From Antennarius striatus (taxonomy: Eukaryota > Chordata > Actinopteri > Lophiiformes > Antennariidae), in NCBI RefSeq assembly GCF_040054535.1, contig NC_090796.1:9319001-9383000 (forward strand): a stretch of DNA of 64,000 nt. The letters are read 5' to 3'. The translations under genes and the position numbers were made by a program. How positions within the stretch are numbered: position 1 is the first letter of the stretch; every line of letters starts with the position of its first letter. The notes beneath the pieces are model-generated. The model did no database searches. It had not been told where the DNA came from and saw only the letters and a list, made by a program, of their open reading frames with translations. Below, piece by piece: positions 34,701 through 58,976 of this stretch.

Positions 34701-34855
34701 TCTAACTGCAGCTTTTTCATTGTGGATTTACTTATTATTTTCTGATCAAATTTATTGATTATTTGTGTTTTTAGGGGAGGAAACAAGATTAAGACATTTA
34801 TTTGGTATTGATCAAAGGTTCTGCAGAGGTCTCTCAGTTGTGCAAGTCTTCTGAT
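31748..34855. other. trpm4 3'UTR, intergenic space and one dispersed repeat
   Basis: The trpm4 3'UTR probably ends after AATAAA at 32219-32224. The rest is AT-rich intergenic sequence up to hrc, with one retroelement-like fragment (33047-33215). I see no further coding exon. Confidence 0.5.
33047..33215 (-). repeat. fish non-LTR retroelement fragment
   Basis: A GC-rich island holding tactttattcatccctcttg, then ccttgctcaagggtgcc and a gtggctaggaggtgag segment matches my recollection of a common teleost retroelement 3' region in reverse orientation. The surroundings are AT-rich. The family name is not certain. Confidence 0.5.
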
Positions 34856-37137
34856 ATGGCTGCTTCAAAATGTTGGATAATGGGGCTCCTGCTGCTCCTC
34901 CTGTGCCCATTCCAGCTCCCCCACGCTGATGTCGTAAGTGACCAGGAAACAGCTGAAGAAGAATTCCACGACAAAATTCTTGAGGAGCTTGTAGATCAGG
35001 GGAATGAAAATTATGAACATGGAGAGGAAGAGGAACACATAGCAACAGAGAAAGGTGAAGAAAATGGGGAGGAATTAAAACATATACATGAGGCAGGAGA
35101 AGAAGAAGAACAGGATGAGGCTGCTGAAGAAGAGAAGGATGATGAGGAAGAGGAAGAGGAAGAGGAGAACTTTGTTGAGGAGGATGAAGTTGAAGAGAAA
35201 CTTGCTGAGGAGGCCAAGGATGCCGAGGAAGAGGAGCTGGAGACGGAAGAGGAGGCTTCTGAAGACGAAGATAATGTGGGGGAAGAAGATGCAGAGGAAG
35301 AGGAGATAGCAATGGAAGAAGAGCCTACTGCAGAAGAGATGCAGGAAGAAGAAGAAGCTGCTGATGAGGATGAGGAGGAAGAAACTGCAAGGGACGAAGA
35401 GGATGATGATGCAAATGAAGAAGGGGCAGATGAGGCAAATGAAGAGGAGGAGGAGGAGGAGGAGGAGGAGGAGGAGGAGGAGGAGAATGATGATATGGGG
35501 GACAAAGAGGAGAACGTGGAGGATGAGGATGAGGATGACGAGGAAGATGACGAAGAGCATGAGGAGGAAGAGGAAGAGGAGGAGAAAAATGATGATGAGG
35601 AGGAGGAGGACGATGAGGAGGAGAGGGATGATGATGTGGAGGATGAGGATGAGGACACGGACGAGGAGGCCGTGGATGAGGCAGCAGAGGAAGAGGAGCT
35701 AACTGAGGAAGAGGAAGTTGATGATGCTGAGCAGGGAGAGGAAGATGATATTGCTGAGGATGACTCAGATGAAGAGGAAGCAGCAGAAGAAGATGGTATT
35801 CTCATTCTTTGACATGTTGTGCTGTTATTATGTTTATTCCCATTATTTATGGGTCTGTATCAATCAAACTGACTGCGATCACATGAATCCTTCTGACTCA
35901 ACTTGGCTGCATGAACTCCGTCACACATTTCAGTCCTGAAATAGACCCGTTAATGCATGTGGTCACTGGCAACAGCAGCATCTCACCATTCATGCCCTGT
36001 ATTGAACCAGTGCGGCTATTCTGAGACACTACAGCAGGTAATGAACAAACCCTTTGAGAGACAAAGTCCTCAAGTCATAATGGGAGTCACTGAAACACAT
36101 ATTTCACATACAAATGAGAGAATCTTGTGTATTTATTGTATGTGGACAACAAAATCCTCTTCTTCCATTGAGGGCAAGGCAGTCCAGTTGGACACAGAAG
36201 TCTCTATCTGTATCACAATCGTCACCCTCATGGTGTTGCACCAGGAAAAAGTCACTATCATCCTAGAGTTATGTGGTCACAATCAACTATCTAGTGTACA
36301 AAATATGTAATTTAACACTGTTTCTGACCCAACTCAAACCGTTAGGCCTCTGTATTTGTTGACACATACAAAATACTTCAGTGCCATCAGCCACTATGAT
36401 CTGTGGGCCCTCAAATGTAATTTAACTCTGAAAATCTAAACAGATGCTGAACATAGTGACGAAACAGAGGACCAAGACGACACAAATGAATTTGAGGCTG
36501 TGGCTGACGTGTTGCAGTTCCGTCCGGGATCTTGGTGTAGCGTTTGCTCCATCTGTGAGGTAAAAAGTAGAGCAAGGTGCCCAGTTTATCCATAGACTGT
36601 TTTTATTCAAATCACTTTTTGACCATATTGTAACAATACTGTAACATTGTTCCAATTTAAGCCATTTGCCATAAAAGCGTCCTGTAAAAGTTGAATGATT
36701 AATTATATTTATCCTCCTCAGCACTGCTCTAGTAGTTGTGAGAACTGTCCCTGTGAAGAGGGAGATGAGTCAGATCACTGCGACGATTGTGAAGTAAGAA
36801 TGTCCACTATTCAAAATACTGTAATAATACACACTGGAAGCAGAGACCATCTCCATTTCTATCCTTTTTCCCCCCAGGGATGTTCATCCTGCTATATTTG
36901 CCCCATATTGTGCAACACAATTTGCACACCAGGTAAATCCTGATAATGATTTCGTGCATATGCCATTGTTGATTTATTTTTTTGTCACTTTTGGCTTTCT
37001 AAGCATTTATTTGTCTTACTCTAATCTAGGTGGTCTTGTTGATGAACTAACTGTGTCCCTGTTTCAGTAAGCATTTCTCATTTTTTTTACAAATAAAATA
37101 TTTAATTTGTTGCTGCAGCAGCATCCTCATTCAGTGA
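34856..37137 (+). CDS. hrc: histidine-rich calcium-binding protein homologue (acidic, His-poor)
   Basis: HRC is a luminal sarcoplasmic-reticulum protein that buffers Ca2+ and binds triadin and SERCA. The exons are 34856-35795, 36444-36559, 36722-36793, 36878-36932, 37030-37066 and 37119-37137 (or 37122-37137), giving about 412 aa. Residues 1-29 are a signal peptide (KCWIMGLLLLLLCPFQ). Residues about 30-325 are almost entirely Glu/Asp runs. The C-terminal Cys-rich module (SWCSVCSICEHC, ENCPCEE, DHCDDCEGCSSCYICPILC, NTICTPGG) follows the mammalian HRC pattern closely, including the final LVDELTVSLFQ helix. Its position next to trpm4 also matches human. Unlike the mammalian protein, which carries His-rich acidic repeats, this one has about 8 His outside the Cys module. 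The short terminal exon is inferred. The C-terminal match and synteny rule out a generic acidic protein. Confidence 0.88.
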
Positions 37138-40100
37138 CAGTGGAAAACTTGTTGACTTACCTGTGTCATGGACTTGGTTTTTCAGAACTGTGTCATCTCT
37201 ACTGTAAGGAACGTTTGACACCACAGGATGGTGACGTGATGTGCTGCATTCAGGACTGGAGCTGTCTGACTGGAAATACCTCTGAAGCAACATGAGCACC
37301 GACACAGGAGCTTGTCATGAACCTAACAGCTGACAGACAAAAAAGAAAAGAAAAATGATTTGGTTTTAATGTTTTATGTTACCTAGCAATGAGAGATGAA
37401 ACATATTAGTCATCATCTATTTTCTGTATATCTTCAAAACAAAAAGACATGAGACATTGACAATAATATGACACTATAAATCTTTTTTTAATCAGGATGA
37501 CTGCAGCAGTTAAATCAAGTAATTTGGTTCAAATTCAACTGACAGGTGTTTAATTTATGACAACCAGCCCTTCCTTCAGCAACGCCTTTTAATAATCTAC
37601 AACAACAATGCACTACTTAGACAAAAGTATTCAGACACAGCTGACTGGTGATTGCCAGATAATCTGTGCTGAAAAAGAACTTTTCTGTAAGAACAGGTTA
37701 TTCTGAAGGGCTCAATGAATTCATTTGTTGTAACATAGTTTTGATGTGAATGTCAGATTATGAAATATCTTCCTTGCTAGATGCTCCTCAGTCAACTGCA
37801 CGTAGTTTTACTGAGGAGGAGACGAATTTAGAAACAATAGCAATCAACCATAAAGTGGCAAACCATGTGAAGTCACAGAGCAGTCATTGGGTTCATGAAA
37901 ACCTCTCAATTCTATTGACTCGAAAACCTCTTCAAGCACTAACTTTGGGACTAATTTTGGGTAAACCCTTTTCTGACGCCTCTCGTGTGGAAGAACTTGG
38001 CTGCCCTGCCCTGATCCCTCACCTCAACCCCACCAAACACCTTTGGAATGACCCGGAATGGAGATTGTGAGCCAGGTTTTCTTGCCCAGCATCAGTGCCT
38101 AACCTCACAAATGCTCTTCTGGATGAATGATCAGAAATCTACACTCACTTGTCTTGTTGAAAGACGTTCTAGAACAGCAGGAGTGGTGCCAGCTGTAAAA
38201 AGAACAAAAGGATTCTAAAATAGTGCCTCTGGACTCAGAAATATGTGTTCCTGTAGGTATGAGGGCGAGTTGTCACAAAACTTCCGTCCATTCTGTCTGT
38301 CGACTGCATATGAAGCTGAAAAATCTGGTGAGGAGGAGCGACCAAGGTTAATATACTGAAGGAGACGAGTAAATTGCAACCTTTCCCAATAATAAACTGG
38401 GTTTACATGGGAAAAGTGTCTTTTTTTTCTTTAGCAAAGTGAAAGAGGGCTATGCAAGACAATCCAAACATAGAATAGAATTTCCTTAAAACTGGGATTG
38501 GCAAGAGACAATATAAAGATAAACACTGTGCAAAGCATATACATTATATCCTGATTTTTCTGCCCCAAAACATTTTCACTCTGTAACTTTCTATAAAGAA
38601 ATAACCCTTGTATTTCCTCTGCCAAGAAGACAATGTTTTTTACTGGCAGTGGTTTGCTTATCTCTCTGTGAGCAGGATTCCTGACTTCTTATACTAACGC
38701 ACGAAACTCAGGAGCAGGTTTGGGTGCATGACGGAAGAACACATTTAGTGATCCTCACTGTTGTCATGCTTTAACATTTCTATGTTTCAGTCTACTACAC
38801 TGCCTGACGTATTAATGTGAGATTGGCACGAAGCCAGGAAGAACTATTCTGGTTTGCCTGAAAAGGATGTTCATTGCTACTTATTGAATTTGAATATACA
38901 GTGTAGGTATATTCCACGATGCGCTGCCAACTTGTCCGGACCCTATCCCAGTCAGCTGGGTTAGGCTACAGCAACTGTCATGACTTGCTAAAGCAGAGGA
39001 AGTGGTAGAGAAAATGAAAGAATGAATGAATAAATTCTTTTATATCATTTTAACAGTAAAATTTATTCTGGATTATGACTCAGATTCAAGCATCTTTTTT
39101 TCCTGACCATCAAATTGTGTAACATAAAGGGAAAAATCAATTAATTTCTTTTGCTTCCTTTATTTACTGAGTGATAGACTGAGGGTTATGGTAAAGTGGC
39201 CCTTAGAACGTATCAGAAGGGAATCGGAGTGTTATGCTACATGTCTGACTAATCAGGACTCCTCATGTATTTTCTATCTTGGCTATTATGGTAGTTGCTC
39301 GCACCTAAAGGTCTTACCATGTTTCAATGAAAAACAAGTCCTTATTTATTTGTCATTGAGGCTCGATCATTAAGGAGGAAAATCTTTTCTGTTCCTTGTT
39401 TAATAAACAAAGACAGAACCAGGTCTGTGCCAGGGACGGTTTGACCTTTTGGTGTCCCGGCCAGCTGAATTTCAGAAATGAAAAGAAAAACTTAAATAAA
39501 TATGAATATACTGTATATATATGACAGAGGTCAGGTGAGGCCTCTATACAAAGATTTAATACCTTTATGTGTCTTTTGTGAGTCATACACTTTTGAATCT
39601 AGAAAAATAATCAAGATGCCATTTCAATCCAGTTATTATCTACAGAGCCTGTCCCAGGTATTAAGTGTGTGTGCGTGTGTGATTGACAAGAATTTCAATA
39701 GAACTGGAAAATAAGGTGTGGTTTCCAAAAGGCTACTGAAGATGAGCAATAAAACCTGTTTTGTTAGCGCAATTAGGGAGTAACGCACACACGTCAACAT
39801 AATAGCTATTTTAACAAACTGTACTTGACCAAATAAAAAGACAGAATGGTACTTTATGTGAAACTACAACTACCAAATTAGACCCTGTGATTTAAAAAAA
39901 AAAATTGTTTTCATTTGAATCACAGTTGATTTTTGTGCATAATATAAAGGTGTATGTTTAACAGGCAAATATTAGAGTAGTCTACTACAATTCAAGTATA
40001 TACTGTATATCGACTACTATTTTCCACAAAATGCTCACCTATCAAAAATAAAATGCTGTACTATAAATCAAAACAATATAATAAAATACTAATGGAAAGG

Positions 40101-42445
40101 GATAAGTTGAGTCCATGACAGCCATATTGTTAGCCATGTGTTCCATAGCTCTGGAACATCGAAACACAAAAACTGCACCCAAGACTTTTCCCTGACTTTA
40201 CGGGTACCTCCATTAAAACGGAAGCAGATAATCGCTCTAGAAGACAAGCAGTGAAGCCAGGAGTTGTTGTGTGAAGGAGTATCTTGAAAATAACAATTTC
40301 TTTTTCAGTTTCTCAGATGTATCCTAATTAAAAGCATATGCTACCTGCATTTCCTGTTTAAAAACAATATATAATGTGACTGTAAGAAATGTTAATGTAA
40401 ATTTATTTTTCTTATCAGGGTAGTGGTTTTGTGCATTTCTCTTAACAAGAGAATGCACATCACAACAGTTATTGGAAGTTGAAAAAATTGCAGCATGTAC
40501 CATCTTCCCTTTACCTTCACCAATGCTAGTTGACCCTTGTTTTTGTGTTCAGAGCGCAAATTATTGCTTTTGGTTTTTTAGTGTCTGGTTTGGGATTTTA
40601 TCTCTCCTTTCTCTTGGGCAGGACAGTGGCTTTAAGGTGGAATACTGATCTTTCAGTGTTGGTTTTTAGAGTGAAAGTAGCCAAATGAAGCAGAAGAGAT
40701 GGAGGGAAACCAGGACACCAGACACTACTGGTGAGCCCCCCAGGAATGATATGGGAATATGAACCCCAAAGAAGGAGGGTACACTCATATCCCAATGAAG
40801 GGCATACAACTACCAAATTAAATCTACTGCTGTTGAAAATCGCAATAAACCCGTCAAATGTCACAACCATTCTTAAGCTTCAATGGATGATGGCGACGCA
40901 CATCCTACAATGCAGTTCACAAGAAATAACAGCAAATGCTGGTTATTGATTAATTATTGATTAATTATTATTTGCCAGTTCATAATCAATTGAATATAAA
41001 CCAACCTATATAAAGATGGAAATATATAGGTAACATTTAAGAAGGCCATCCTAAGCACTCTCGTCTTTGCTTCATGTCTTGTTTTGTCTCCCTGTTGATT
41101 TCCCCTCATTGTTTTTACCTGACTTAAATTGTCTGCTCCTCCCTGTGTCACCTGTCAATCACTGTCTCGTCACTCTGTGTTTGGTCCCTGTGAGTCGTTG
41201 TGCCCACCATCAGTTCATTGTTTAGTTATCTGTTTTGTCCGCATGTCTGCTCCTGGGTTTTTCAGGTAAGTCTTTTTCCATGATGTGTTTTCTTTGTGTT
41301 TAAATGATTTTTGGATTGTGGATGGAACTCCATGCCTGTACTCTTAGTTTTATTAATATACTCTAGTTCCGTGTAATATTGCCCTAGTTTTGTCTGTGGT
41401 TGGGTCCTGTATTTTGAATTACACAAAACAGTTTGAGAAGAAGTAACATGCACAACTGTAGGTATATGTAGCTGCTGTAATTATTAAATATGAATTCATG
41501 GCAAAAGGTAAGATTGTGAAAAAATATGCTTCCATAGAAGTTAAAATAGTTTCTTTTTTTTTAATCAGTAAACCAAAAATAATTATTTGTATGAACTTTC
41601 AAGGGTTAAAGTTAAACTGAGACGTACTTCTTCACCTTTATTTTGGGAAAGTTTTCCAAATGTAAAGCAGGGTGCTGGCTATTTCCATTGTGTAGACAAC
41701 CTTTATGTTGTACCAGATGGTTTGTTTGCTCTAAACACCAGTATTGTGGTTGCTCTGTCCTGAAGAAAGGCCTGTCATCACGTTACATGTAACGCTGTAC
41801 CAATTTTATTGTTGTATACACAATGTACCCCCCACCCCTAATGCCTGTCCCTATTCCTTTATATCATTGACTTCATACATACTGGGGCATTTTGACACTT
41901 GTTGGCTTTGGATTTATTGGAAGGGGACACATATTTTTAATGTGATTTTTTTTCTTCGTTTTTTTTAGGCCCTTAGGACTTCACACCTGGACAACAAGGT
42001 AGGAAATTGTTACAAATATTTACAAACAATAGTAAAAGCATCATATTCTAAATACTACAGTAAGGTAACATGATATCAGCTGCAAAATCAAAAATATTTA
42101 CAACAAATTAGCATCAAAATTTTTAATGACAGCTTCTATTATAGTCTGAAACAACAGTTTTATTTAGTGTGCAGGTCAGTGAAGCAGCTTAGGTGAAATG
42201 AGTGGATGTGTCAGTGGTTGACCGTGTTCGGTGTTTAATGATAGCACAGAATTCCCTTGAGATTTTTTTGAATCGTTAACATGGAGAAAACTTTTGTTTG
42301 AAATAGCAGCTGCACACGACTGATGCCTGTCTTGAGTTGTGTCCTCGTTTTCAACATAATGTAACATCAGAGTGATTGTTAAATGACAGTAAATTCAAGT
42401 ATATGTGTATATATGAGTGGTAACAAGCTTTGTTTCCTCCTGAAG
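37138..42445. other. intergenic with DNA-transposon remnant; likely ca4-like promoter at right end
   Basis: This AT-rich 5.3 kb has no supported host coding exon. It holds a Tc1/mariner remnant (37610-38220) and an old dispersed-repeat tail near 38910-39030 (ctatcccagtcagctgggtt). A possible 20-nt non-coding exon at 41979-41998 (ttttttag|gccct...acaag|gtagga) could be the 5'UTR exon of the carbonic anhydrase gene to the right. Confidence 0.45.
37610..38220 (+). mobile_element. degraded Tc1/mariner-family transposon
   Basis: A left part with gacaaaagtattcagacac resembles the terminal sequence of this group. The decayed transposase C-terminus is readable as IPHLNPTKHLWNDPEWRL, the usual DLNPIEHLWDELERRL region with the third catalytic acidic residue area. 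It is followed by degenerate sequence reading PSISA and LTNALLDE. Several stops and frame breaks show it is inactive. Confidence 0.7.
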
Positions 42446-45400
42446 ATGCAACTCTTCTCCCTTCTGCTGGGCCTCAGTCTTGGAGCTGTGGTAGTACGTG
42501 GTGAGGAAATGGTTCTACTTAACAGACACTAAACATTCATGTTCTTGCCCTAGTTTTACACTTATCATTCTTATCAGGCAAGGGGCATAAAATGCTATTA
42601 TTTAGGAAGTGAAAAACCTGTTTTCTCAATTTTAAACCCAATTAAATATAGTAAATACAATGTTTTAACTATTTCTGATACTTGATTTACATCAAATAGG
42701 GATAAACGATGCAAGATAAAAGCGTGAATACCCCCCCCCCCCAACATCGTACATCATTTAAGCGACATTATTTGTTGTATTAATATTCTTCATGGTTGCT
42801 AGCTAACAAGTTGAAAAACCAATGGAATAGGAGAAAAAAGTAGGAAATTTTGTTTTTTTAATTTGAATTAAAATTTAACTTAGTAATTTATAATTAATTT
42901 AATAGTTTAAATTTTTAAATTTAAAAACCAAATGGCATTTTAATGGTGATGAGAACAAGGAGTATCAAATTGGTCGCAAGCCTAAGGACTGAAAACCGCC
43001 TGTCTTTACATGTTGAACCTTAAATATTTATCCATACAATAACAAATTCTCGTAACTGCAGTGGTATAAAAATTGTTCACGGGACCTGTCTCAGTTTGCT
43101 ATGCGCGAGAGGTATACTGTACAACACTCCTGATGGCAAAAGCTCATCCTGGGGTAAAAGTTTGATGAAATTAAGTGCATTTCCCTTAAATGTAGAGAAG
43201 AATAAAATTGCATGAAATGTGCACACAAATTCTTAAGTCTTAACTACGGGCCATCAGTAACTTTATTGTTAAATTCCATTTACAATAATTCTTATACAGG
43301 GAATTTGTTCATTACATAATGATAATAAAGCCGTGTTTTTTACATGTCATGCCCTGCAGCGGTCACAGTATCTTGGCTGTATTTCTGTTTCAGCTGCCGA
43401 CAGTCCATGGTGCTACATTGGCTGCAGTAAGTAAAGACATGTCTGACCTGTTGATTCATCTGGACCAAAGGGTTCAGAGTTCGTATTAAGAGCACGTCTG
43501 CTGTTTATAGGCAACACTCCGGCTCACTGGAAAGACCTGCCTGGTTCTTTCTGTGGAGAAAATAAACAATCACCTATAAATATAAATACCAGCAACGTTA
43601 AGATTGACCACAACCTGCCAAACTTCAGCTTCCTCAACTTCAGCTCTCAGCACGTCATCAAGTCCTTCATAAACAATGGGCATACAGGTACACAAAGTGA
43701 GGCGGTTGATTTACTGTTCATTTTGAGTTCAACATTTTTTTCATTTGGGGCAGGCTACAAAGGGCAAGAAAGTAGGATCTGTGCTGATCATACAGTATAT
43801 GGTTTTCTCTTAATTATAAATACATGATTTTCAACATTTCAGCAAAATTCATATTGGAGGAAAATGAAGTCGAATTGAGTGGAGGTGGTCTCAATGGCAC
43901 ATATTCTTCACTTCAGTTTCACTTTCATTGGGGTGATACAGTACTTCATCCAGGCTCAGAGCACAAGATGGATGGAAAACGATATCCAATGGAGGTACAT
44001 CGTCTGTCATTGGCATTTTGAATGAGCAACATGGATCTTTTTTCTCTGTTTTACGTTGCTTCTAATCTATTTGCAGATGCACATAGTCAGTATCAAGAAA
44101 GGTCTCACCACAGCGGAAGCCCTCAACTCAAAAACGGGAATTGCTGCTCTTGGATTTTTGATAAATGTGTGTCCTATACAATAGAAATGAGTTATGATTT
44201 CCCCCTTGAATAGCATGACTGAATGTAGGAGTGACTGTCAAACTACAGTAATTTGCACACCATGAAAATTATATCGCAAGTGTTAGAATGTCTTCTCCCC
44301 AAAGGGAACAGAGGATGGAGATCCCTCGAGTCCGTGGAGTAAGCTCACATCTTACCTGACAAACACTGAAGGTACAAGATAAACAGTTCTGCTTCAGTGA
44401 GAGATATGATTTGTTGCATGAGAAAATGTTGCTGTACAGAAAGCCAAGGCTTAAACACTACACATTATACATTTTCAGCACCATGTCAATGACATTCTAT
44501 CACTTAACCGTGAAGCTGAGGATTACACCTTTATCAGAGCCTGAAAATTTTTGCCTTAGGACATACCCTGTCAACCTACTGTTCAAATGCCACTGTGACT
44601 GGTATCTGACTGCCAAAAGACTACGTGAGACGACAATGGCGTGACTCGTCTAGGGTTGACTGATGTTTGTCATTCCTGTTCTCAGACAGATCATTGGTGT
44701 TTTAGAGCTTTCCTAACAGACTGCAAAAAAGTATGGCCATGTGCTTAAAAAGTGTGTTTGTGTATAAAAATACTATATATATTGCTGTGTGTCTGATGTC
44801 TTCTCAGATGTTGAAGTGACAATAAACCATAACATCTCTATTGATGATCTGATTGGTAATGTGGACCGCACTAAGTTCTATCGATACATGGGATCCCTCA
44901 CCACTCCGAACTGCAGCGAAGCAGTTGTGTGGACAGTCTTTCAAGAACCAATCATCATTCACGAAAGTCTGGTGAGTCGGACATGTGGGACATCTTTGTT
45001 TTGCAGGATGAGAGGAGTAAAGGCTTAGTTTATTGTTCAAACAAATCAAAGAAAATACCCAATACTATAGAATAACAGAACCAGCCAAGTGGTGCGAGTA
45101 AAGGCTAGCTCAGGTAACTTACATTCTGCAGTCAGTATTCTCATAGTAACCTATCACATGACAGTGAATGCAGGATCATGACCCTATTATGCAACTTCCT
45201 CCTGCTTCAGATTTTCAGCTCATTGTTTACCTTTAGATCTTGCAAGGGTTTGATTTTAACTCACTTGTTAATGTTTTTAAACAATCATGAGTACCAAGAA
45301 AACTAGAAAAAGCATCAGATTAATGTCATTGATAATTATTTCAATGCCCACTACCTGTAGTAATTAAGTCAACAGATTCAGGTAGTTCATAGGGCAAAGT

Positions 45401-48400
45401 CTAATCATTATACTTGTGTTGAAAGAACAGACAAGGTTGGCACAGTAATTTGAAATTTTCTTGTGTACTCTTTGTAAATAATTGTTCAGTACAGCTTATT
45501 TCATGATCTGACTGAACTGAATCTTGGGACAAAACACAGGATGGGAAACTTTGTCCTTGTTTCCATTTTCATCTAGATAAGGACATGATGGCAAGGTTTG
45601 GGTACATAATGGGGCGAGCTGGTTTCTAGTTTGATCATCTGTGATAAGGGTGTTTTTCTATGAGATGTAACAACAAACAAAAAAGTTGCACAAGCTGCAT
45701 GGGATGTATGAAATGACAAACATTTGAGTAACTTGTGACTGTAGATTGACAGGCAATCTTTCTCCATCTTATCAATTTGACAGCTTTCACCACTCAGATG
45801 CACTTGTCTGCAGGTGCCCTGTTCTCTGGTCTGTACAGTGGCTTGGCAGGTGGATGACTATCTCAAGCATTAAGAAAAATTAGAAATATGTTTGTTCACA
45901 CAGATAGTATTTCAGGATGTCATCTTGGTTTCAGCCAGCTCTTTAAAAAATAAATAAATCACCATATAGTTGTGATTTTGAAATGTACTTTATGAAGATG
46001 ACTGGTTTTCACCCCAAACAAGTTTCTTACACCAAATCGAGTCAAAAATGTGAAACTGAAGCGCACACCTTTTCTTGTGCCCATGTATTTTATTACTTCT
46101 ATTTATATCTACCACCTACACTTGGTTGTGGATCCATTAAACTTGACTGTTAATCAATGATGAACTCAATTGATTTTTTTTTACACTGTTTACAGAGGAT
46201 TGGGATCAGCAACATATTTTTAGATAACCTTCTATGTTTCCTGATAATGCATGACAAATTAACACCATACCTAAGTGACGTCAGTTGAGTGTGTAACTAA
46301 CTACACGTCATGGGCATCTGTAACATCTTCCTCATTTCTGTTAAACCACTCAAACTGTTTCATAACTCTATGATTCACTAACTACACGGTCATTGGACAT
46401 AAAAAAAAAACTACAGGATTTTCTGTAAAAGCAAATTTATAAAAACAAATTTCAATTATTTGCACGCCCCTCAGCACCGACTTAGATGAAACTGAATATA
46501 CTGTAGATAGGACAACATGCTAATATTAACTATGAAATGTTTAGCAACCACTGGATTCTGTCATATTTTAAGTCGATGTTAAAATCAGGAGGAATCCACC
46601 ATATTTCCAAGGTGATGGTGTGTTTTGTTTGGATGTTTGTCAGTATATAGTGAGTCAGATTGAGATAGTCAGTGGTTGTAACAAATGTATGAGTACAACA
46701 CATATTTATGAGAGATTTCTATTGACGATGGTAGTTTTTTAAATAATGAAGGCAACGCCTCCTATGATGCTACACTATTTGCATCTCATGACATAACCTC
46801 CATATTGAGCATTCACACTGTTAACACACATAAAGATGACATCAGGTTGGGACCAATCCCGACACCAAGCTTCCACAAGTGTTTGGTTTGAGTAATCATC
46901 ACAGGTAACGGGCGTCCACACCCAAAACTCCTTCAGTCCACAATCCCCCTCCGCTGCAGCCACATCTAGTTGTGCATTCGTAACTAGAATATTATCTTAG
47001 CAGCACTATCACAATGGCAGATTTTTTTTAATCAATGCTTTTTCTTCTCTTTTTAGATTAAAATGTTTCCCAACAAGACAGGGCATACCAATATTTTCCG
47101 GCCTGTGCAAAAGCTGAACGAACGCCAAGTATATGCCTCCCCTGCAACCACAACCAGTGAGTCGGAAAATCACTAGAGCAAGATCCTAAATATTTAGCAT
47201 GTTATATATGTATTGACACATGACCTATTTTTTTAGTTCATGAATGGTGTTATGATGACAGCTGTGGTAAGTGATTATATACAAATCAGATGATGACTGG
47301 ACATTTTCCACTGTTAATGGGATTTGGAGTTGATTTTCTCTGCCCTCAGAATTTAGTCCATCGAAATGGCACCTTCTGCCTCATTCCTTCTGCAATGACA
47401 AACGCCAGTCACCCATCAATATCGAGACGGAAAGTGTTGTGACGGATGAGCATCTCAGCGCTTTCACCTTCAATAGATTTAACGACAAAAAGGCATTTGG
47501 GAATGTCACTAACACGGGCCACACAGGTTTGAGTCTTCTCTTATATCACAGGCTGTTAGGGTTGTTTTTTTGGGTTTTTTTGAGAACTGTATTTTTAGTA
47601 ACGGTCAAGGGATTAACAACTGATTTCTCAGTTAGTTGTCAAAACATCAACAGTTTCAATAACTAATTTTTAGTTTCAAGCTCAGTGCCCTCTCAAATAT
47701 GGTATCATACTGCATTTATCTGACAAATGTAACTTTGCCAAACAAATGTAAGTGTTTGTGTTAAATGGAAAAAGGATTGCACACTATGGTGATCCCTAAC
47801 GGGGCCAGCCGAAAGGAAGTTAAGCATGTGAACATTTTAGAGCTTTTTCACTTTATCTTGTCCTCACCCACCTCCCAGTGAAGTGTAAGTTGAAGGAGGG
47901 AGTGTGGCTCTCAGATGGTGGACTGGGACACAGATACAATACCATACAGCTTCACTTCCACTGGGGTTCTTCATCACAAGTCTCGAACGGCTCAGAGCAC
48001 TTAGTGGATTCACAAAGATACCCAATGGAGGTAGGTATACATATTAAAATATGGTATGGTTCCTGTGAAAGCATTTTCAGTGTATATGGTCTGTCTTTGT
48101 GTCATTGCGCAGATGCACATTCTGAGCCTGAGGGCCGATTTACAGTTGAAGGATGCACTGAATGAAGACAATGGCCTGGCAGTTCTGGCATTCTTTATTG
48201 AGGTAACATTTAGTGAGACATCTCACATATGTCCATAGTTCTGGTTCAGAATCCACACTTCGTGTCCTAACTGTGAATAGGTTTAAGGGGCTAGTGTGCT
48301 CACATTGGGAAAAGTAATGCAATAATTATTTACACAATTTTTCTTAGAAGAAAAAAATAATCCAGTTGTATTTACTGTGTACTTAAAAAACACTGCTCTT

Positions 48401-49920
48401 CACTAACATGGTGCTAAAAAAAACACAAAAAGGATATACTCAGCTACTAAGGACAAAATATTGCAACCTAATGTTGAAAAAATATCCAGTTACAATTAAA
48501 GAAGAAAAAATGTTGCATGCTCCAAGTTTTTATGGCAGTTTTAAGTCTCAATTTTAGATCAACTTTCTAAAAAGAAAGTTAAAAAGTCAAGTTTTCTATT
48601 TTTGTCTTTGTAATGAACATTTTAAATCATAACACTGAATATAATTCCCCAACATATTGGAAACATGATGTAACAGGTGAAGAGAAAACATCAAGCTGAC
48701 AGCTTGATTTTCAACACTTGGTGTGACATTATTTGCTGTCACATTCCAGCCTTTAATCCAGCTGCCCTAGATAGGTGAGAATGTTGCATTCTCTATCTGC
48801 TGTCTTTCATCAATGAGTTGGTGCTCCTCTCTGCAGGGCTTGAGAGGTGTTATTATTTTCTTTGTCTTAAGGACAGGATGTACAGTTTAGCAGATTCTTT
48901 TGTCACTTCACAAGTACAAAAATGTTTATACTTTTGGTATTACCAAGTACGGGTAGATCCAAGAATGTATTTTGCAGCTTTATAAACTGTAGAAATGAGA
49001 ACACACAAATCTTCTGCACTTACTTTATAATTTTACAATCCATTTTATTTGAAGGAAACATGTATCTTTATCTCTACTAACTTTCTTGCAATTGACTTTT
49101 CTGAACTCCAAGGCAAACAATGAAGCCAAAAGCAGCGAAGATTCAGAGCAGCAAGACGTAAGTGACTTATCTGTCTAAACCTGCAGACTCTTGTTTCTCC
49201 ATGGTCAAATGTCTCTTAATCATTCAATGTGCTTACCTCTAGACAAATCAATCAGATATGGAAGCATGGAAAAAACTAACAAACTATTTTTCAGCTATTC
49301 AAAATATCAGTAAGCTAAACGTCTTCTGTACATAATTTATAAACGACGACAAGAGGACACACAAATATGTCACATCTTGTATATTTTTGCTTCCATTCAG
49401 GCTCTGAAGTTGAAATTACTGACGATATCTCTATTGATGACTTGATTGGTAACGTGAACCGAAACGATTACTACCGCTACAACGGCTCCCTAACCACCCC
49501 AACATGTAATGAAGTGGTTGTTTGGACAGTCTTCAAAGAGCCTATCAAAGTGGACAAAAACCTGGTATGTTACTTTTTCTTGGTGCTGGTTATTTTCAGC
49601 TTTAATGAAAGTCAAACAATCATCCTGGAATGAAATCCAAGTGGCACTTGGGTATTTTGTTTGTGACTTTTTGTGTTCAGTCAAAGTGAAAAATACATCT
49701 GCAGTCTGTTGTAAGTGATCATTTAAATTTTCTTCAACACCCCCAGATGATGATGTTCCCGAATAAGGCAGGATATGAGGATGTGTTTCGACCCAAACAA
49801 TCACTTCATAGCAGGATAGTCTACTCCTCCAAAAAATCAGGCTGCAGTGGCCCCCACTCAGTCTCACTGTTCCTGCTGCTGACTCTGACGTCATCCAGTT
49901 TGCTTCGGCTGGGTGAATAG
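42446..49920 (+). CDS. ca4-like: two-domain GPI-anchored carbonic anhydrase, CA IV type
   Basis: Predicted extracellular zinc enzyme, CO2 + H2O to bicarbonate + H+. Exons: 42446-42500, 43394-43426, 43511-43687, 43843-43994, 44077-44166, 44305-44371, 44808-44971, 47057-47156 | 47237-47266, 47350-47526, 47879-48030, 48113-48202, 49113-49157, 49243-49309, 49401-49564, 49747-49920; 578 aa in one frame. Signal peptide 1-18 ([17 protein letters not shown]). Domain 1 (about 24-275): Zn ligands H115, H117, H141; E128; T223; shuttle H87. Domain 2 (about 283-550): H374, H376, H401; E388; T497; shuttle H347. Both keep the CA IV cysteines (WCY..C, FC, PNC/PTC). Domain 1 lacks a C-terminal hydrophobic tail; domain 2 lacks a start and signal peptide and begins only 80 bp after the last domain-1 exon. 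The end (SGCSG, then hydrophobic [13 protein letters not shown]) is a GPI signal. Domain 2 has an extra 45-nt acidic exon. Domain-1 donor at 44167 (GTGTGT) and domain-2 donor at 47527 (GTTTGA) are weak. Poly(A) signal 49942-49947. Confidence 0.88.
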
Positions 49921-50939
49921 CGTATTGGAACGGCTATAAACAATAAAGTACACTGCACTAATTATTTTAGCTGTCTTGCACTGTGTACATAATTATATTT
50001 TTTAGCAAAATGTTTGTAAAGTAGGGAGGATGTTTTTTCTTTTTCTCTTACCTACACAGAATCTTAGTATGTAATTACTGTTTTAATCAAGACACTGGGA
50101 AGTTGGATTTCCAATAAGGGCCTCTGTCCACTGTGTAGCATGTGGCATTTTGTACAGCTAAGTTGGGAGTTTTAAAGTGGTTACTGCTTGGTCAAGTGTG
50201 CAATAAAATGTTGAATGTAATCATCTACAATCAAGTGATTAAAGATATCTATGATTAACTCCCAATTACAGTTGTCTACATAGAACAAAAATAAATTTAT
50301 TATTGCAATATGAGGGTTTCTGTCTTTGTATTGGTGGGGGAACACATTATTTTAACGACTGAAAACAAATTAACTATGAAGTTTCACTTTTTTAGCCATT
50401 CAGTTCCAGAAACTTCATACCTGCCCTTTAAAATAATATGCACCACTATTATTGAATCAGTCCACATCAGTGATCAATGGGGGAGGAAGATAGAAATAAA
50501 AAAGCCACTTTTGTTTGGTGTAATTATAGATTTATGCAGGCCTAAAACGGTGTCTGTATTTTGGTATTAGTTAGGTTCTTCAAACAAAACCTGGGCTGAA
50601 AAAAAACCCCATTGGCATTGAAATGTGTTCATTTAAAGACTTAATTTGACACTGAAGAAACTAATAAAATCCCAGATATATAGATTGTTGTTGTTTTTTT
50701 AGTCTAATTGTTTTCTGTAATTTGGTGTTTTCATTCTCATTCCTCCTTTTTTGTCATTGTACTTTTTTTGATAGTGTAAATCTATGATGCATTTGTATTT
50801 ATTACTTCATATTTACTGTGAATTCACATTTGGAAATGATGCTCAAAGTCCGTATATATCATGTACCACATTAGTTGGATATTTAAACTGAATTTCTATT
50901 TGGTTTCCAGCAGAATCCTGTTTTTTTAAGTATTACATT

Positions 50940-51830
50940 ACAAAGATATACTTTACTGATCCAAAACTTTAAAATGCACATGTTGCATCAGCATTCAAGA
51001 CATAAAAACTTAAGAATGATGAAACCAAGAAGAGTAAAATTAAGAATATTACATAAAATAAGGAAGATATACTCATAGTATATACAGTATTACAGATGTA
51101 CAAGAAGTGTGTAAAGTGAAATATACAGACAAGTTACTAATAAATATGAAATGTGAAATATTATTGTCCAACCAGTCTGCTGGTGGGACTGGTGATAAGT
51201 CATTCCACTGACTTATCAGTTATCCATGATGGATAACAGTTCGTCCTCTCCACCCCAGCCTCCACAGTACCCAGTCTGCAGCCGACCACGGAGCCAGCCT
51301 TCCTGATCAGCTTGTTGAGTCTGTTGGTATCACAACGCTGCTCTTCCATCAGACCACCACAAAGAAGAGAACGCTGGCCGTAACAGACTGTTAGAACATC
51401 TCCAACATCCCGCTGCACACATTGACGGATCTCAGCTTCCTCAGGAAGTAGAGTCTGCTCATCCCTTTTTTATAGACATCGTCAGTGATTCACACCCAAA
51501 TACTTGTAGTCCTCTACAAGTATTTTGGGAGGACTACAAAATACTTGTAGTCCTCCCAGAATGCACAGTAACTTTGAAGGGCTCCTCTTCTTCCTGAAGT
51601 CCACCATTATTTTTCTGGTCTTGTTGACATTCAGCCTCAGGTGATTGTGGCTAGCCTACTCCACAAAGTCATCCATCACGACACTGTACTCCCCTTCCCT
51701 CTCCTCACTTTTTCACCACACAACAGTCGAGTTATCAGAAAATTTCTGCAGGTGTTGTACTGAAAGTCCGTTGTTTATAAGGTGAAAGGAAAGGGGACAG
51801 TCCCCTGCAGAACTCCTGTATTAACTCATT
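50940..51830 (-). mobile_element. 5'-truncated non-LTR retrotransposon (Rex/RTE-type)
   Basis: Reverse-complement sequence ends at gatcagtaaagtatatc near 50945 (the 3' terminus). It contains the decayed reverse-transcriptase C-terminal region at 51200-51750, recognisable from agcctccacagtacccagtc, cttcctcaggaagtagagtc and ctggtcttgttgacattcag. Several frame breaks show it is dead. The family is inferred from recollection of fish repeats. Confidence 0.6.
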
Positions 51831-52010
51831 CATTCATTCATTTTCCAACCCACTTAATCCGCTAACGCAGGTCGCGGGGTAGCCAGTGCCTATCCTGGCA
51901 GTCTCAGGGCGTGAGGCGGGGGACACTCCGGGCACGACGCCAGTGTACCGCGGAGCCACACAGAAACAAACAATCATTCACACACACACTCACTCCTATG
52001 GTCAATTATT
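51823..52010 (+). repeat. dispersed fish repeat
   Basis: The text attcattcattttccaacc, ccgctaacgcaggtcgcggg and ttcacacacacactcactcc is a pattern found in many teleost dispersed repeats. It is GC-rich against an AT-rich background. Confidence 0.5.
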
Positions 52011-52299
52011 CACAAACAATATTTAAAGAAATTGTGATGACAAATATCTGGACAGTCGTATTTCCTCATTTCTCAGGTAAGTTAAAACAACATGCTTGTT
52101 ACCTTTTGAAAAAGATTCACATGCTTTTGTATGTTCTTCCACGTTCAGATGTATTGGACTTACAAGACATACCTCAGCAACCACTTCATGCCGAAATCAT
52201 CCCAGAACCTGTTATTATTTATTATGTCACTCAAAATGAACTCTTCACAAAGGGCTAAGGCTGTATTTAGAACTTCTGGAAAGTAGGATGTGCAAATGT

Positions 52300-52633
52300 G
52301 AGACCAAATGACACATAGGTGAACTCTGTTTGTCATTGTTGTCATTTAGGTCAACATTGGATCATTCAGAAGTCATCAGTGAACTCCTGGAGTTGTTTAG
52401 CTGAGCTGAGAGAACAGGAGGCTAATACTTCTGTACATCCTACTTTTCAGTTTTTTATTTGTAAACACAATATAAAATGATGAATACATTTGGTTCCACT
52501 TCACGATTGTGTCTCACATGTTGTTGATTCATGAAAAATATTTTCAGTTTGTTTTCTTTAAGTTTGAAGCCTGAAATGTGGCAAAATGTCAAAAAGTTCT
52601 TGTGGGGGGCCAATACTTTCGCAAGGCACTGTA
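52300..52633 (+). mobile_element. Tc1-like element, right-end fragment
   Basis: The sequence ends with ccaatactttcgcaaggcac tgta, preceded by gtttgaagcctgaaatgtgg and cacttcacgattgtgtctca. These are the hallmark terminal sequences of a widespread fish Tc1-like element and are shared in inverted orientation with the copy at 55852. The left end is not visible. Confidence 0.7.
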
Positions 52634-52839
52634 GGCTGACAATGCAGGCATGCAGACTTTAGGAACATCCAGTGTATGAGTCTACAATATGTCACATTTC
52701 TTCTGGTGTTAGCTATCCTTGTGTGCTCTCAGCTACAAAATCCAAACATAAATTGTTCAGTCGTCAAATAGATTGCTACCTTATTTAGGACTCTCACTTA
52801 TAATTCTACAACTCAGTCTCCTGTGCAGGCTCAATAGCA

Positions 52840-53075
52840 GAGTTTGCATGTTCACCCCATTTCTGCGTGGGTTTTCTCCTGGTTTCCGACTTCCTCCCAT
52901 CTCCAAAAACATGTGCTGGTTGTCTGTGTCTCTGTGTGGCTCTGCGGTGCACTGGCCTCACACCTGGAGTTTCCCCCACCTCACGCCCTAAGCCAGCTGG
53001 GATATGCTCCAGCTCCCCGTGACCCGTGACAGCAGATAAAGCGGTAACAGAAAATGAATGGATGGATGGATGAAA
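52840..53075 (+). repeat. dispersed LINE-tail repeat with (ATGG)n end
   Basis: The block runs from tttgcatgttcaccccattt through ttcctcccatctccaaaaac and agctgggatatgctccagct to atggatggatgga. It is the decayed form of a very common fish LINE 3' region. Confidence 0.65.
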
Positions 53076-54563
53076 GGATGGACTAATATGCTATGGTTTC
53101 ATATTTGGTATTTAATGTTATTGAATATGTGAAACTAGACTAAAATCATACAACAAAAGTAATTTTTTTAAAAAAAGCTCCTCTCTCTACTAAGTACTCA
53201 TGACATTTATGGTGTCAATAGAAAATTCTAGGCACACTGAAGGTCACTTATAACAAGCAACTGAGACCTTGAAGTCATTATGGAAAATTAAACTGATATT
53301 TCATATCTTGGGATTTCTTTTCTGAAAACATCTGGGTCATATCATGCCCTGCAAAACACCCAAAGAATTAGAGATTAAGGCATTTGTGGATTTGCTTTTC
53401 AAAGATTTAACCTCTGACCGTACATAAAACAATCAGAGTCGATGAGTCATTGGAATATGCGTAGCTAGGATTCTTAGTGGATCTTGCAGCTCAGAATGCA
53501 GAATTGTGAGTGTCACACAGGCTAGGGGGTTTGTCTTTGAAGTCTTAGAGAACCAGATTTTTAAGGTTATTAAAAATAATTTAGACTGTTGCCACACGGG
53601 TGCTGTCATTTTGGGTACGCCCAAGAGGCTTTTCAGATTCAAGCAATCAGTTAGCTGTCAATAAGTCAATGAGAGCAAAATGGAACCCTCCAGGAGATTT
53701 TAAATCTCCCTCCAGGAAAGATTGAAAGTAACACCTATGTGTTCATTTCAATCTGAGAGATTGAAAGTAACACATACACTAATCCGCAATAACATGCTAA
53801 CCAACTTGCAATCTTCCCATATTTTATCCTTCCCCAGGACAGAGTTGTAGCTGTACCTGTAAACACCAAATTAACAAACAATTTCATCTCCTTACCCTCT
53901 TGGTATTTCCAATAGTTAGGACACTTTTAAGTTGGTCTACAAGTCAAACATTTATTGAACAATGATCACACGTCACACTCTCGTAGAAAACATGAAATTC
54001 ACAGTTTTATTCGGTTAACTTCGTTTACCGTATTAGACGAGACAGACGGCATCACCTCTCAAAAAACACACAGACATCCGGTTTCACATGTGTCCTTCAG
54101 TTTCACACAGCCAATCTGGTAGGATGCGTCCACATACATGTCTCCTTTAACAAAGAAGAGAGCCACCAAGAGAAATATGAGATTGCAATAGGATTTCAAA
54201 AGGAATTGGAAATACCTAACCAACTAAAAATACATGTAATGAATTAGTGAATAAAAATAAGATGAGATGAATCCACTGATTGTTTATACCTTCTGTGTAT
54301 ACCTCATGTGAAAGAAAATCTTCCTGGAATTTGGTTGGGAGTCCTGGTGTCAACTATAAAAGAAACTGAAAATGAGTGCTGTTTGTAACCTGAGTCAAAG
54401 GTGACAGTCAAAATGTGGTTGCCAAAATAGTTTGTGCACTCTGAGAAATAGACGCTACAGTTTGCTATTGTTTCCTCTGCTATTCTAATATCTTACAACA
54501 TGGCTCATTTGTTATGGACAAAAAATTCCCTGTATGTCAACGGATTTATTAAATTGACCAGTT

Positions 54564-54593
54564 GAACTTTCTCATTTTTTAATGAGAAAGTTC
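54564..54593. repeat. perfect short hairpin
   Basis: GAACTTTCTCATT, a TTTT loop and AATGAGAAAGTTC form a 13-bp perfect stem. Nothing nearby suggests a function. Confidence 0.7.
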
Positions 54594-54839
54594 ACTAAAT
54601 TACTCCGTTGAATTAATTGACAGACTCTGCTTGAATAATTAACACGTCACAAATGTCATGGGACTATCAACATTCTTTCGTCAGTGCCAATGGTGTCAAG
54701 CTCGAGGAGCCGAAATTCAAGACATGGCCTTGAATTGCAAGTCTAATAGTCATTAAATTTATTGTTCCTACAATATTTTAATCTGAAGTTGTGAATTTGA
54801 TTATAACTGCTTTTCTCTTAATAAAATGGATTGGTGATT

Positions 54840-55060
54840 CAGCTGATCCGAGTTCGATACATGTGCTGTGGTCAATGCTGAGGCAGAGGTTTGAGGATGA
54901 TGGACGTCCACAGACTGAACAGACTGATCCGCAGGGCTGGGGACTTTGTCTCCTCATTCTAACAGTGATGCAGTGAGAAGGAGGAGGGATGGAAGTGGAC
55001 ACAAAAAACTTTACATACCTGTATCAACTGGTTCTTTCTGGAGCAGTGCAACTGTGACAA
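54840..55060 (+). mobile_element. LINE fragment related to the 50940-51830 copy
   Basis: The text ccacagactgaacagactga and tccgcagggctggggac matches, in plus orientation, the same reverse-transcriptase region as the element at 51200-51420. It is short and decayed. Confidence 0.5.
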
Positions 55061-55115
55061 AAGAACTCTTTCCCCCTCAATAACATACACTGATTCTCTT
55101 TATCTGGTCATATTC

Positions 55116-55165
55116 TCTTTGAGAATATATCTGAAGATGGAGCTCTTCAGACATATTCTCAAAGA
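55116..55165. repeat. 50-bp imperfect palindrome
   Basis: TCTTTGAGAATAT and TCTGAAGA on the left pair with TCTTCAGA and ATATTCTCAAAGA on the right, around a small central loop and one mismatch. It may be a tiny MITE or a hairpin transcript source. Confidence 0.65.
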
Positions 55166-55851
55166 TTGGAATATTGATTCCACAGGCAAAAAAAAAAATC
55201 AGACAGCAAAAGTAGGCCACAAAAATTTTTAAGAGTCTTCAAACGAATGACAAATTTTAGATTTCCCACACACGCACCATCCCTTGGGTCTGGGCCAAAT
55301 GATTGCTCAGATCATACTTTCAAAACTTTTATTTTTAGAGATACATTCTTGGGATTTCTGTCACAGGCACACAGAAACTTCTTTTTTCCTGTTCTCGTTG
55401 TCAAATGAACTAATCTATGTTCTACAGGGTTGGTTCTGGAATGTTTTCATTTGTTTTCCTTCAAGCCAAATACAAATTACCAACACAAATTCTGTAATTG
55501 CATAGCAATCCAGATTGTTCAGTTAAGAGTTGCTGCTCATATTAAAAACTGTCCATGAGAAAGGTGCACAAATGAGCTGGTGGTATGTGGGCGGACAACT
55601 TATGACACACTCTGTTTTATGGGTTCAAGTAATGAGACTATATCTCGACCTAGGGGAGCAGTCCCACTATGAATATACCAAGTCTTTGGAACAAAGTTCA
55701 TAAGATTATCAGATGTTGATTTTCAAATAATATTTGTGATTTAACTGAAATCATACACTTTCTGCTTTTGTCACTTGTTATTGAACTAGCTGTCAAAAAA
55801 TGTGATTCATATAGAACATACCACAAACTTGGTGTTCAAGAGTACATACAG

Positions 55852-56067
55852 TGCCTTGCGAAAGTATTAGCCCCACACAAGAACTTTTTTGACATTTTGC
55901 CACATTTCAGGCTTCAAACTTAAAGAAAACAAACTGAAAATATTATTCATGAATCAACAACATGTGAGACACAATCGTGAAGTGGAACCAAATTTATTCA
56001 ACATTTTATATTGTGTTTACAACTAAAAAAAGGTTTGCGTGGCCAATACTTTCGTAAGGCACTGTAT
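55852..56067. mobile_element. Tc1-like MITE, about 216 bp, both ends present
   Basis: It starts CAGTGCCTTGCGAAAGTATT and ends AATACTTTCGTAAGGCACTG. These are inverted terminal repeats differing at one base in the first 20, flanked by TA on both sides as expected for Tc1/mariner insertion. The interior is only the subterminal part of the full element, so it is an internally deleted, non-autonomous copy. Confidence 0.8.
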
Positions 56068-56293
56068 GACATCACACTTTCAGCTTCAGATATCGGGTTC
56101 TGTGTGGACACAGTGAGCAAACCATGATGTAATGTCGCCAATTTTACGCGTAAAATCAAGACTGGCACATTTCTGTTCTAGTTAATGCAAAACTTCCTTG
56201 TGCAAAAAGAGACGATAACCTATCAGTCGATCCTCCATAGGACATTTTTTCGGGGAGGTTAAAGTAAAGTCAGATAGAGGCGGTGTAAGAGAG

Positions 56294-56363
56294 CCAATAA
56301 ATAGGAGGATGAGGCTCCTCAGCAGTGAATACAGAGCGGAGCGGAGCGGCAGGTGCGCAAAAG
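56294..56363 (+). promoter_or_regulatory. promoter and 5'UTR exon of the single-domain ca4-like gene
   Basis: CCAAT at 56294-56298 runs into AATAAATAG, a TATA-like box. A GC-rich exon with repeated GCGGA units follows and ends at the donor caaaag|gtaagg (exon end 56363). The coding exon starts at 56835 directly after its acceptor. Confidence 0.6.
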
Positions 56364-56636
56364 GTAAGGCGTCGCTATTTGGATCAATCATCTGCGCGAA
56401 AAGAAGAACTGCTGGAAAGAAAAGCTCCCATTGATCAATTAATCAATTTCTATGTTGTAAAGTATTAATTCATTGATTCATTTGAATACAACTGGTAAGC
56501 TCTGTTTAAGGTGAGACTTTAAATCATTTGTTCTAACGATTGAAATTGGCAGCATTTAATTAGTTGTGCCGAATCCAAACACACTGTCATCAACTATACG
56601 TAAGAATCGGTTTTATTTTGCTGTTTGTTTTTTTTC

Positions 56637-56689
56637 GTGTGTGTGTGCGTGTGTGCGTGTGTGTGCGTGTGTGTGTGCGTGTGTGTTTC
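56637..56689. repeat. (GT)n-rich microsatellite
   Basis: An interrupted GTGTGTGCGTGT tract in the first intron of the single-domain ca4-like gene. Confidence 0.9.
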
Positions 56690-56834
56690 ACACTTTCATT
56701 CATTTAATTGTTTAACGAGTAGGACATTTTCTTGCTTGACATTTAGTATGGCCGGCCGATTTGTTAACTGCGCAAAAATATCATATTAGTATTTTATCTT
56801 TCGTGTGTTTTTATTTATTTGTTTGTTTTTTTAG

Positions 56835-58976
56835 ATGAAGTTGCTTGTTGCTGCAGTAGGCTTACTTGCCTTGTGCGTCCACCCGAATGCAGCAAGTAAT
56901 TCAACCGGTAATTCAACCTTTTTCATCTTGGATGCGTAGTGATTGAACTACCAAATTGTTGCTGCCATGAGAATTTGAGTAACTTCTGTCTTTTTTTATT
57001 TATTTTTTTTAGAATGGTGCTATCATGATCCAGCATGCAGTGAGTAATCCCTGTTTAACTTCCTATGACCACGATCTCTTGCTGAGTATTTGAACCTTTG
57101 TCTTCTTTTCCTTAGATGACACCACATGGCCAACTCTCTTTCCTTCGTTTTGCAATGGCAATCGGCAGTCTCCCATAAACATCAACAGCTCAGACACCAC
57201 AGTCAACGACAACCTGACTGAAATCATGATTACGAACTCCAGTGTGAACGGCTTTCTGGATAAGATCGAGAATACCGGCAGGACAAGTGAGTGCTGGGCG
57301 TCTGCAAACACGGTCCCAGATTCAATTTTAGGCGTCTTGGGCAATGGACAATAATTTTCTTTTAAAATTGTGTAATTTCTCTGCAAATTTTATTTATCTC
57401 ATGGTTAATTATCATCTCTGAGATGCATCATAGACAGGAAAGTGCACACCTTTTACTTTTTGGACGTCCTAAAATGATGCATAATACAGATTGTATGCTT
57501 CTCCTGTTCACATTTAATTTGAATTTCCTTTTTTTTTTTAAACCTCTACAGTTAAAGTCAAATTTAGAAAAGGAATTGAGTTTCACGGAGGAGACCTAAC
57601 TGAGAGTTATGAGGCCCTGCAGTTCCATTTGCACTGGGGTAATAGAACTTCGGTGCCTGGTTCCGAGCACACTGTGAATGGCATTCGCTATCCAGGGGAG
57701 GTACTACATTCTATTGTTCATGTTGAGATTTAATTACGAGGTTTTGTTTTTTTTTCGATACAACGGGTCTTTATTCAACTGAGGATGTTTTTTTTTGTTT
57801 TTTTTTAACCACAGATGCACATAGTAACTATTAAGAAATCTCTTAATGGAAATACGTCTTTAGGAACAACAATCTCTGATGGATTTGCTGCTTTTGGCTT
57901 CTTCATTGAGGTAAGAAAAAGACAAAACAAAAATAATGCCATTAAAATTGTCCGTCATAATATTTCATATATCAACCACGGCTTTAAGTAGTTGATAGAT
58001 GACATCCAGGCCAAATAAAAGTTAAATAAGAATATAAATGAAAATTTCTTTTTTTTTTTTTTTTTTTTAAATAAACGTGCTTTTAAAAATCAAATCTTTC
58101 TTTATTTCTTTCGTTCGGTCTTTCTTTCTTTTTTTAGGAGTCGACAAGTTCATCTGCATTATCTGACAGCTGGAGAACCTTGTTAAACGACCTGAGCAAC
58201 ATCTCGTTTTGTGGTGAGGACATTGGAAAAGGGATTGGATTGTGTTTGACAAAATATATTCTTAAGCATCACAAAATCCAAACTATAGTGAACAAATTTC
58301 AAGCAATTATGAGAGGGTAGCGCAATGCTTATTCATGTACAAATTTATTTTCCTTAATATAACCAAATATGCAGAAAATTGTTAGTAATTTGTCCTTGAG
58401 AAATCTTAGATGTGCTGCCCTTTCATAATTTGAAATATGGTGATTTTTTCCCCCAAACTTGTCAATATTGGCTGCAGTCTGTTCAGAGGTCATATTTCTC
58501 TCCTCAGACACATCTATCGCTGCACCTTCTGGAGTCTCACTGGATGATCTCATCCAAGGGGTGAATCGCTCCAGCTATTACCGCTACCTAGGCTCGCTAA
58601 CCACCCCAAATTGCTTTGAATCTGTGGTTTGGACTGTGTTCAAAGAACCAATCGGCCTCAGCAGTGATGTGGTGAGCTTTTGGTATCTTTTTTTTCACAA
58701 TGATGCAACTACATAGTCAGAAAAGTCAATATAATTTTTTTCAACACTGTTTCTCACAGCTAACATGCTCCAATATTTTGTCTCCAGATTGATCTTTTCA
58801 GCACCTTATACATTGGCGCCAATGCTTCATCACCTTTAATGATCAATGTCTACAGAGGCATCCAGGACCTGGCCCTGACTGTCACAACACAGCGGGAGGC
58901 CACGGAAAGCTCTGCCTCCATGATCTTCTACTCTCTAGGGCTTATTGCCCTCAGCCTTTTTGTGTCCTGGAGTTAG
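56835..58976 (+). CDS. ca4-like: GPI-anchored carbonic anhydrase, CA IV type, with His64 replaced by Arg
   Basis: The exons are 56835-56907, 57013-57039, 57116-57286, 57552-57700, 57815-57910, 58138-58213, 58508-58671 and 58788-58976, giving 314 aa; the exon plan is that of each half of the neighbouring two-domain gene. Residues 1-20 form a signal peptide ([20 protein letters not shown]). The zinc ligands H116 and H118 (QFHLHWG) and H142 (EMHIV), E129 (GSEH) and T229 (GSLTTPNC) are all present, so the zinc site should form. The residue at the proton-shuttle position is R89 (ENTGRT, where the neighbours have NNGHT and NTGHT). The CA IV cysteines ([17 protein letters not shown]) are kept. The C-terminus, [20 protein letters not shown], is a GPI-anchor signal, predicting an outer-membrane enzyme. 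It is probably active, with slower proton transfer, unless another residue serves as shuttle. Confidence 0.92.

Follow-up and report, generated by a model that had tools for sequence, protein, structure and literature searches.

Introduction

Fish gills excrete CO2 and take up ions, and membrane-bound carbonic anhydrase IV (CA IV) that faces the blood or the water is important for both processes. A CA4-like isoform with two consecutive CA domains has been reported in Eupercaria, and is named CA4C in a figure legend (PMC7918649). It is described there as membrane-bound and, in Chionodraco hamatus, as gill-specific, with a level below 5% of those of CA1A and CA4A, the remaining isoforms of the gill. 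Its twin domains are regarded in that paper as recent and as confined to Eupercaria. Two-domain CA4-like proteins have already been published for perch-like fishes, and the locus examined here encodes a known kind of protein. The initial annotation had hinted that a two-domain CA IV would be unusual among vertebrates, a suggestion overtaken by the report of CA4C (PMC7918649).

A comparable predicted arrangement was described for the giant clam protein DDCA, which has 601 amino acids, one signal peptide, two alpha-CA domains and one predicted GPI site near the C-terminus (PMC5879104). In the same paper two transmembrane regions were also predicted, and work cited there found that tgCA was not released by PI-PLC. 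No two-domain vertebrate CA was reported in the accessible portions of PMC4393933 and PMC9032886, and no description of the genomic junction of the two domains was found in the open-licence literature. The present locus adds exact exon borders and a one-domain neighbour, which are of use for testing how the fusion arose.

Gene model and domain content

The stretch of DNA that was analysed (the window) comprises 64,000 nucleotides of Antennarius striatus, C21:9319001-9383000 of the 548-Mb genome, and positions are counted from its first letter. It was found that 16 exons at 42446-49920 on the forward strand form one reading frame of 578 codons plus a stop, with consistent phases and GT...AG borders at all 15 introns. 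The calculated mass of the precursor without sugars is 64.9 kDa, and the protein carries 13 N-glycosylation motifs. The features are as follows, with the basis of each in brackets.

42446-42500 (+): exon 1, start codon and signal peptide, donor in phase 1 (reading frame, signal-exon scan)
43394-43426 (+): domain 1 exon 2, WCY..C motif (reading frame)
43511-43687 (+): domain 1 exon 3, His64 equivalent H87 (reading frame, histidine check, spliced alignment)
43843-43994 (+): domain 1 exon 4, zinc ligands H115 and H117 (reading frame, histidine check, spliced alignment)
44077-44166 (+): domain 1 exon 5, zinc ligand H141 (reading frame, histidine check, spliced alignment)
44305-44371 (+): domain 1 exon 6 (reading frame, spliced alignment)
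44808-44971 (+): domain 1 exon 7, GSLTTPNC with the gatekeeper Thr (reading frame)
47057-47156 (+): domain 1 exon 8, without GPI tail, phase-1 donor at its end (reading frame, scans)
47157-47236 (+): 80-bp junction intron between domains 1 and 2 (signal-exon and polyA-signal scans negative)
47237-47266 (+): equivalent of exon 2 in domain 2, HEWCYDDSC, acceptor in phase 1 (reading frame, comparison with neighbour)
47350-47526 (+): domain 2 exon 3, His64 equivalent H347 (reading frame, histidine check)
47879-48030 (+): domain 2 exon 4, zinc ligands H374 and H376 (reading frame, histidine check, spliced alignment)
48113-48202 (+): domain 2 exon 5, zinc ligand H401 (reading frame, histidine check, spliced alignment)
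49113-49157 (+): uncertain 45-nt exon, phase 0-0, without a domain 1 counterpart (reading frame; skipped by spliced alignments)
49243-49309 (+): domain 2 exon 6 (reading frame, spliced alignment)
49401-49564 (+): domain 2 exon 7, GSLTTPTC (reading frame; start also from spliced alignment)
49747-49920 (+): last exon, end of domain 2, GPI-like tail and stop codon (reading frame, hydropathy)
49942-49947 (+): candidate AATAAA polyadenylation signal (motif scan)
56835-58976 (+): neighbouring one-domain CA4-like gene of eight exons, with a signal exon of its own (either of two donors possible) and a GPI-like tail (internal control)

A possible 5' untranslated exon was also seen by eye upstream of exon 1, at 41969-41998 (+); it is preceded by a T-run and an AG and followed by a GTAGGA donor.

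The Pfam family PF00194 (Carb_anhydrase) matched two stretches of the one protein, with 461.9 bits against a cut-off of 27 (E 7.6e-139), and a search of NCBIfam with the protein returned no match. Searches of the PDB placed CA IV first for domain 1 (E 3.3e-43, among the best 60 of 242 matches) and for domain 2 (E 2.9e-36, among all nine matches below 1e-30). Domain 1 extends over approximately residues 20-274 and domain 2 over approximately 283-548, with a linker of about eight residues. As the initial annotation had stated, the zinc-binding histidines are kept in each domain (H115/H117/H141 and H374/H376/H401), as are both equivalents of the His64 proton shuttle (H87 and H347), and these positions were confirmed in the translated frame. 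GSEH and GSLTTP, which we take to be the motifs of the Glu106-Thr199 gatekeeper pair, aligned in both domains, and the pair is present in each. Four cysteines lie at comparable places in each domain (C25, C29, C44 and C227; C284, C289, C304 and C502), the second of each set being matched by spacing only; this is what the two disulfides of CA IV, with their known pairing, would lead one to expect. Both active sites are predicted to be catalytic.

At the C-terminus, the best 12-residue hydropathy mean was 1.85 at residue 560, within a short stretch, and the chain ends in RLGE. A GPI signal at this end is plausible, if not ideal, and GPI attachment of the protein is predicted from it.

The exons were checked with a purpose-written spliced aligner, for which human CA IV and a cluster relative served as queries. 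With human CA IV, both borders were exact for four of the seven domain 1 exons that follow the signal exon (43511-43687, 43843-43994, 44077-44166 and 44305-44371) and for three of the eight domain 2 exons (47879-48030, 48113-48202 and 49243-49309). Exon 7 of both domains aligned with shifted ends, and some other exons were recovered partly. Domain 1 exon 8 was missed with both queries, though it lies inside the searched stretch, and spurious short exons at 45884-45918 (human CA IV query) and 45814-45842 replaced it. In domain 2 the human query also failed to return the first exon, the 45-nt exon and the last exon; with the neighbour's protein the first of these was recovered, its end four bases off. 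The 45-nt exon at 49113-49157 was marked as uncertain because both alignments of domain 2 skipped it. The frame stays open with or without it, and it may be a cassette exon or no exon at all.

The junction between the domains

The junction intron is in phase 1 on both sides: domain 1 exon 8 stops at 47156, and the following exon begins at 47237. Splice sites were scored over positions 40001-60000 with a consensus matrix, by which the junction donor was equalled or exceeded by 34 of 1202 GT sites, itself included, and the junction acceptor by 118 of 1120 AG sites. Domain 1 exon 8 stays open up to the junction donor and encodes no hydrophobic tail; read-through past the donor would add six residues (SESENH) before a stop, likewise without a hydrophobic tail. 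Neither AATAAA nor ATTAAA occurs in 47157-48042, which includes the junction intron. The first domain 2 exon (HEWCYDDSC) corresponds to exon 2 of the neighbouring gene, where a separate signal exon precedes it.

We then consider whether domain 2 has a signal exon of its own. A strict scan of 40000-47236 and 49921-57100, with phase-1 donors and a hydropathy rule for the signal peptide, returned the exon at 42446, the neighbour's at 56835 (with two donors) and a weak candidate at 43349 that overlaps domain 1 exon 2, and it gave no usable second signal exon for domain 2. The recovery of the neighbour's signal exon by the same scan indicates that it is able to find such exons. A loose scan of 42501-47236, which admitted donors scoring 0 or more, returned weak candidates, 45178 and 45287 among them. 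Their donors scored no higher than 3.3, apart from the donor of domain 1 exon 5 at 44166 (score 6.0), to which two of the candidate starts lead. In our judgement none of the loose candidates pairs a strong donor with a signal peptide of typical form, and they were taken to be chance occurrences. An alternative last exon with a GPI tail for domain 1 was sought by tblastn in the 2.1-kb intron, without an exon-8-like match; exon 8 of the neighbour (58788-58976) escaped the same search, which could therefore overlook a diverged exon of this kind.

The reading frame, the PF00194 matches and the signal scans agree with the initial annotation, in that the DNA is best read as a single gene encoding two CA IV-type domains between one signal peptide and one C-terminal tail. 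Its statements that the only start and signal peptide are those of domain 1, and that 80 bp with no signal exon inside separate 47156 from 47237, were likewise borne out, the strict scan showing no convincing other signal exon upstream of domain 2.

This reading has to be weighed against two tandem genes that were wrongly joined, the promoter and signal exon of domain 2 being hidden in the introns of domain 1. The presence of a one-domain neighbour in the same cluster, the length of the intron at 44972-47056 and the weak candidates of the loose scan speak for such an arrangement. We nevertheless consider it very unlikely, because the strict scan left domain 2 without a usable signal exon, yet found those of this gene and of the neighbour, and because domain 1 exon 8 encodes no anchor and runs into a donor of the right phase. 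Still more improbable is a decaying pair or an assembly artefact, for which nothing positive was found. Between the domains dN was 0.50 with dS saturated, which makes selection unmeasurable for that pair; a pseudogene is at odds with 578 codons free of stops and frameshifts, with the retained zinc and shuttle residues and with a dN/dS of 0.17 for domain 1 against the neighbour (at a dS of 3.9, itself near saturation). Duplicated reads would not be expected to differ as much as the domains do, at 45% identity.

An alternative with more to recommend it, though still improbable in our estimation, is that exon 1 has two splice partners, domain 1 and the exon at 47237. Direct joining to 47237 would yield a GPI-anchored CA of one domain, made in addition to the two-domain protein or in its place. 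The phase-1 end of exon 1 (at 42500) fits the acceptors at 43394 and 47237 alike. Against this stand the lack of an anchor on domain 1 alone, the lack of a polyA signal in the junction intron and the two-domain isoform reported in Eupercaria (PMC7918649).

We therefore favour, with a probability of about 0.88, a two-domain CA4-like teleost gene of the published CA4C kind, whose product would be exported by one signal peptide and probably held by one GPI tail. A single transcript, with the exon at 42446 included, would be joined across 47156|47237; the signal peptide would then direct export of the whole chain, with its two alpha-CA domains and short linker, and the GPI tail would probably hold it on the outer cell surface. 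Because one tail would serve both domains, two CO2/bicarbonate active sites would sit on one anchor, which might allow more extracellular CO2/bicarbonate conversion per anchored molecule. A role in the gill or another epithelium may be expected. Such an arrangement of active sites is unusual, and the literature covered holds no measured benefit of it. We infer orthology to CA4C.

Neighbouring gene and origin of the double domain

The neighbouring gene has the layout of a signal exon, a WCY exon and a GPI-like last exon. Its zinc histidines are kept, and the His64 position is occupied by Arg (NTGRT), which may weaken proton shuttling. Between the two CA genes lies an inverted repeat (52451-52595 / 55886-56030; 145 nt, 97% complementary, 3290 nt apart), perhaps a mobile element. 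Upstream of the CA genes, a TRPM4/5-like channel exon was noted at 30104-30331 (+), with TRPM5 as its best match (E 2e-11), as was a long, very acidic Glu-rich open frame at 34796-35812 (+) with a signal-like start and no Pfam match, whose resemblance to histidine-rich calcium-binding protein is our guess. Seven pattern matches for fish sequence hidden in viral contigs were considered, and none was confirmed.

Domains 1 and 2 share 45% identity by BLAST (123/271); when 258 positions were aligned the value was 47.7%, and in the tree alignment, with 226 columns, it was 49%. A 14-row tree drew on 10 of 15 fetched regions (L017-L022, L024-L026 and L028; L023, L027, L029, L030 and L031 were left out), and L018, L020, L022 and L025 were shortened at their C-terminal ends, where the aligner had appended doubtful exons. 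CA matches on C5 and at C21:2.4 Mb were left out of the trees. A CA4-like locus on C6 (L031, then L040/L041), with about two believable exons, was included in an earlier 15-row tree and dropped from the later one.

Domain 1 (d1), domain 2 (d2) and the neighbour (g3) formed one clade in the 14-row tree (100/100). Inside it, the best tree joined d1 with g3 at 60/4, and neither d1+d2 (p-AU 0.478) nor d2+g3 (p-AU 0.329) was rejected. A set of seven rows with human CA IV and the CA4-like genes received 92/89 (not starred) and also holds the unclassified locus L020. In the 15-row tree, with its poor C6 row, the clade of three had 97.7 SH-aLRT and 97 bootstrap, with d1+g3 at 64.8/63, and a first quartet tree, built from 232 columns with 200 bootstraps, gave only 39% for d1+d2.

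Since the domains are 45-49% identical and share one clade with the neighbour in which none of the branching orders was rejected, a fusion of old tandem genes is as possible as a recent internal duplication. A more specific proposal, which we offer tentatively and hold to be doubtful, is that two old and diverged tandem CA4-like genes were fused, one of the GPI ends and one of the signal exons being lost, rather than a recent internal duplication having occurred. The two sites on one anchor would then be non-equivalent, and their relative output could be shifted by splicing of exon 1 to either domain.

Comparison with known carbonic anhydrases

The closest solved structures of both domains are PDB 1znc, 5ipz and 2znc, which we take to be CA IV of mammals; the WCY start and GSLTTP are shared with them. 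Mammalian CA IV differs in having one domain, and identity to 1znc is 37.8% for domain 1 and 35.3% for domain 2. The giant clam DDCA/tgCA, as described in PMC5879104, resembles the fish protein in combining a signal peptide, two alpha-CA domains and a predicted C-terminal GPI site. It comes from a mollusc, and the clam and fish double domains likely had independent origins. In contrast to CA4C, whose twin domains are called recent (PMC7918649), the two domains of the present protein share 45-49% identity and do not come out firmly as sisters when the neighbour is included. By description, the two proteins agree in being CA4-like and in carrying two consecutive CA domains in one teleost protein.
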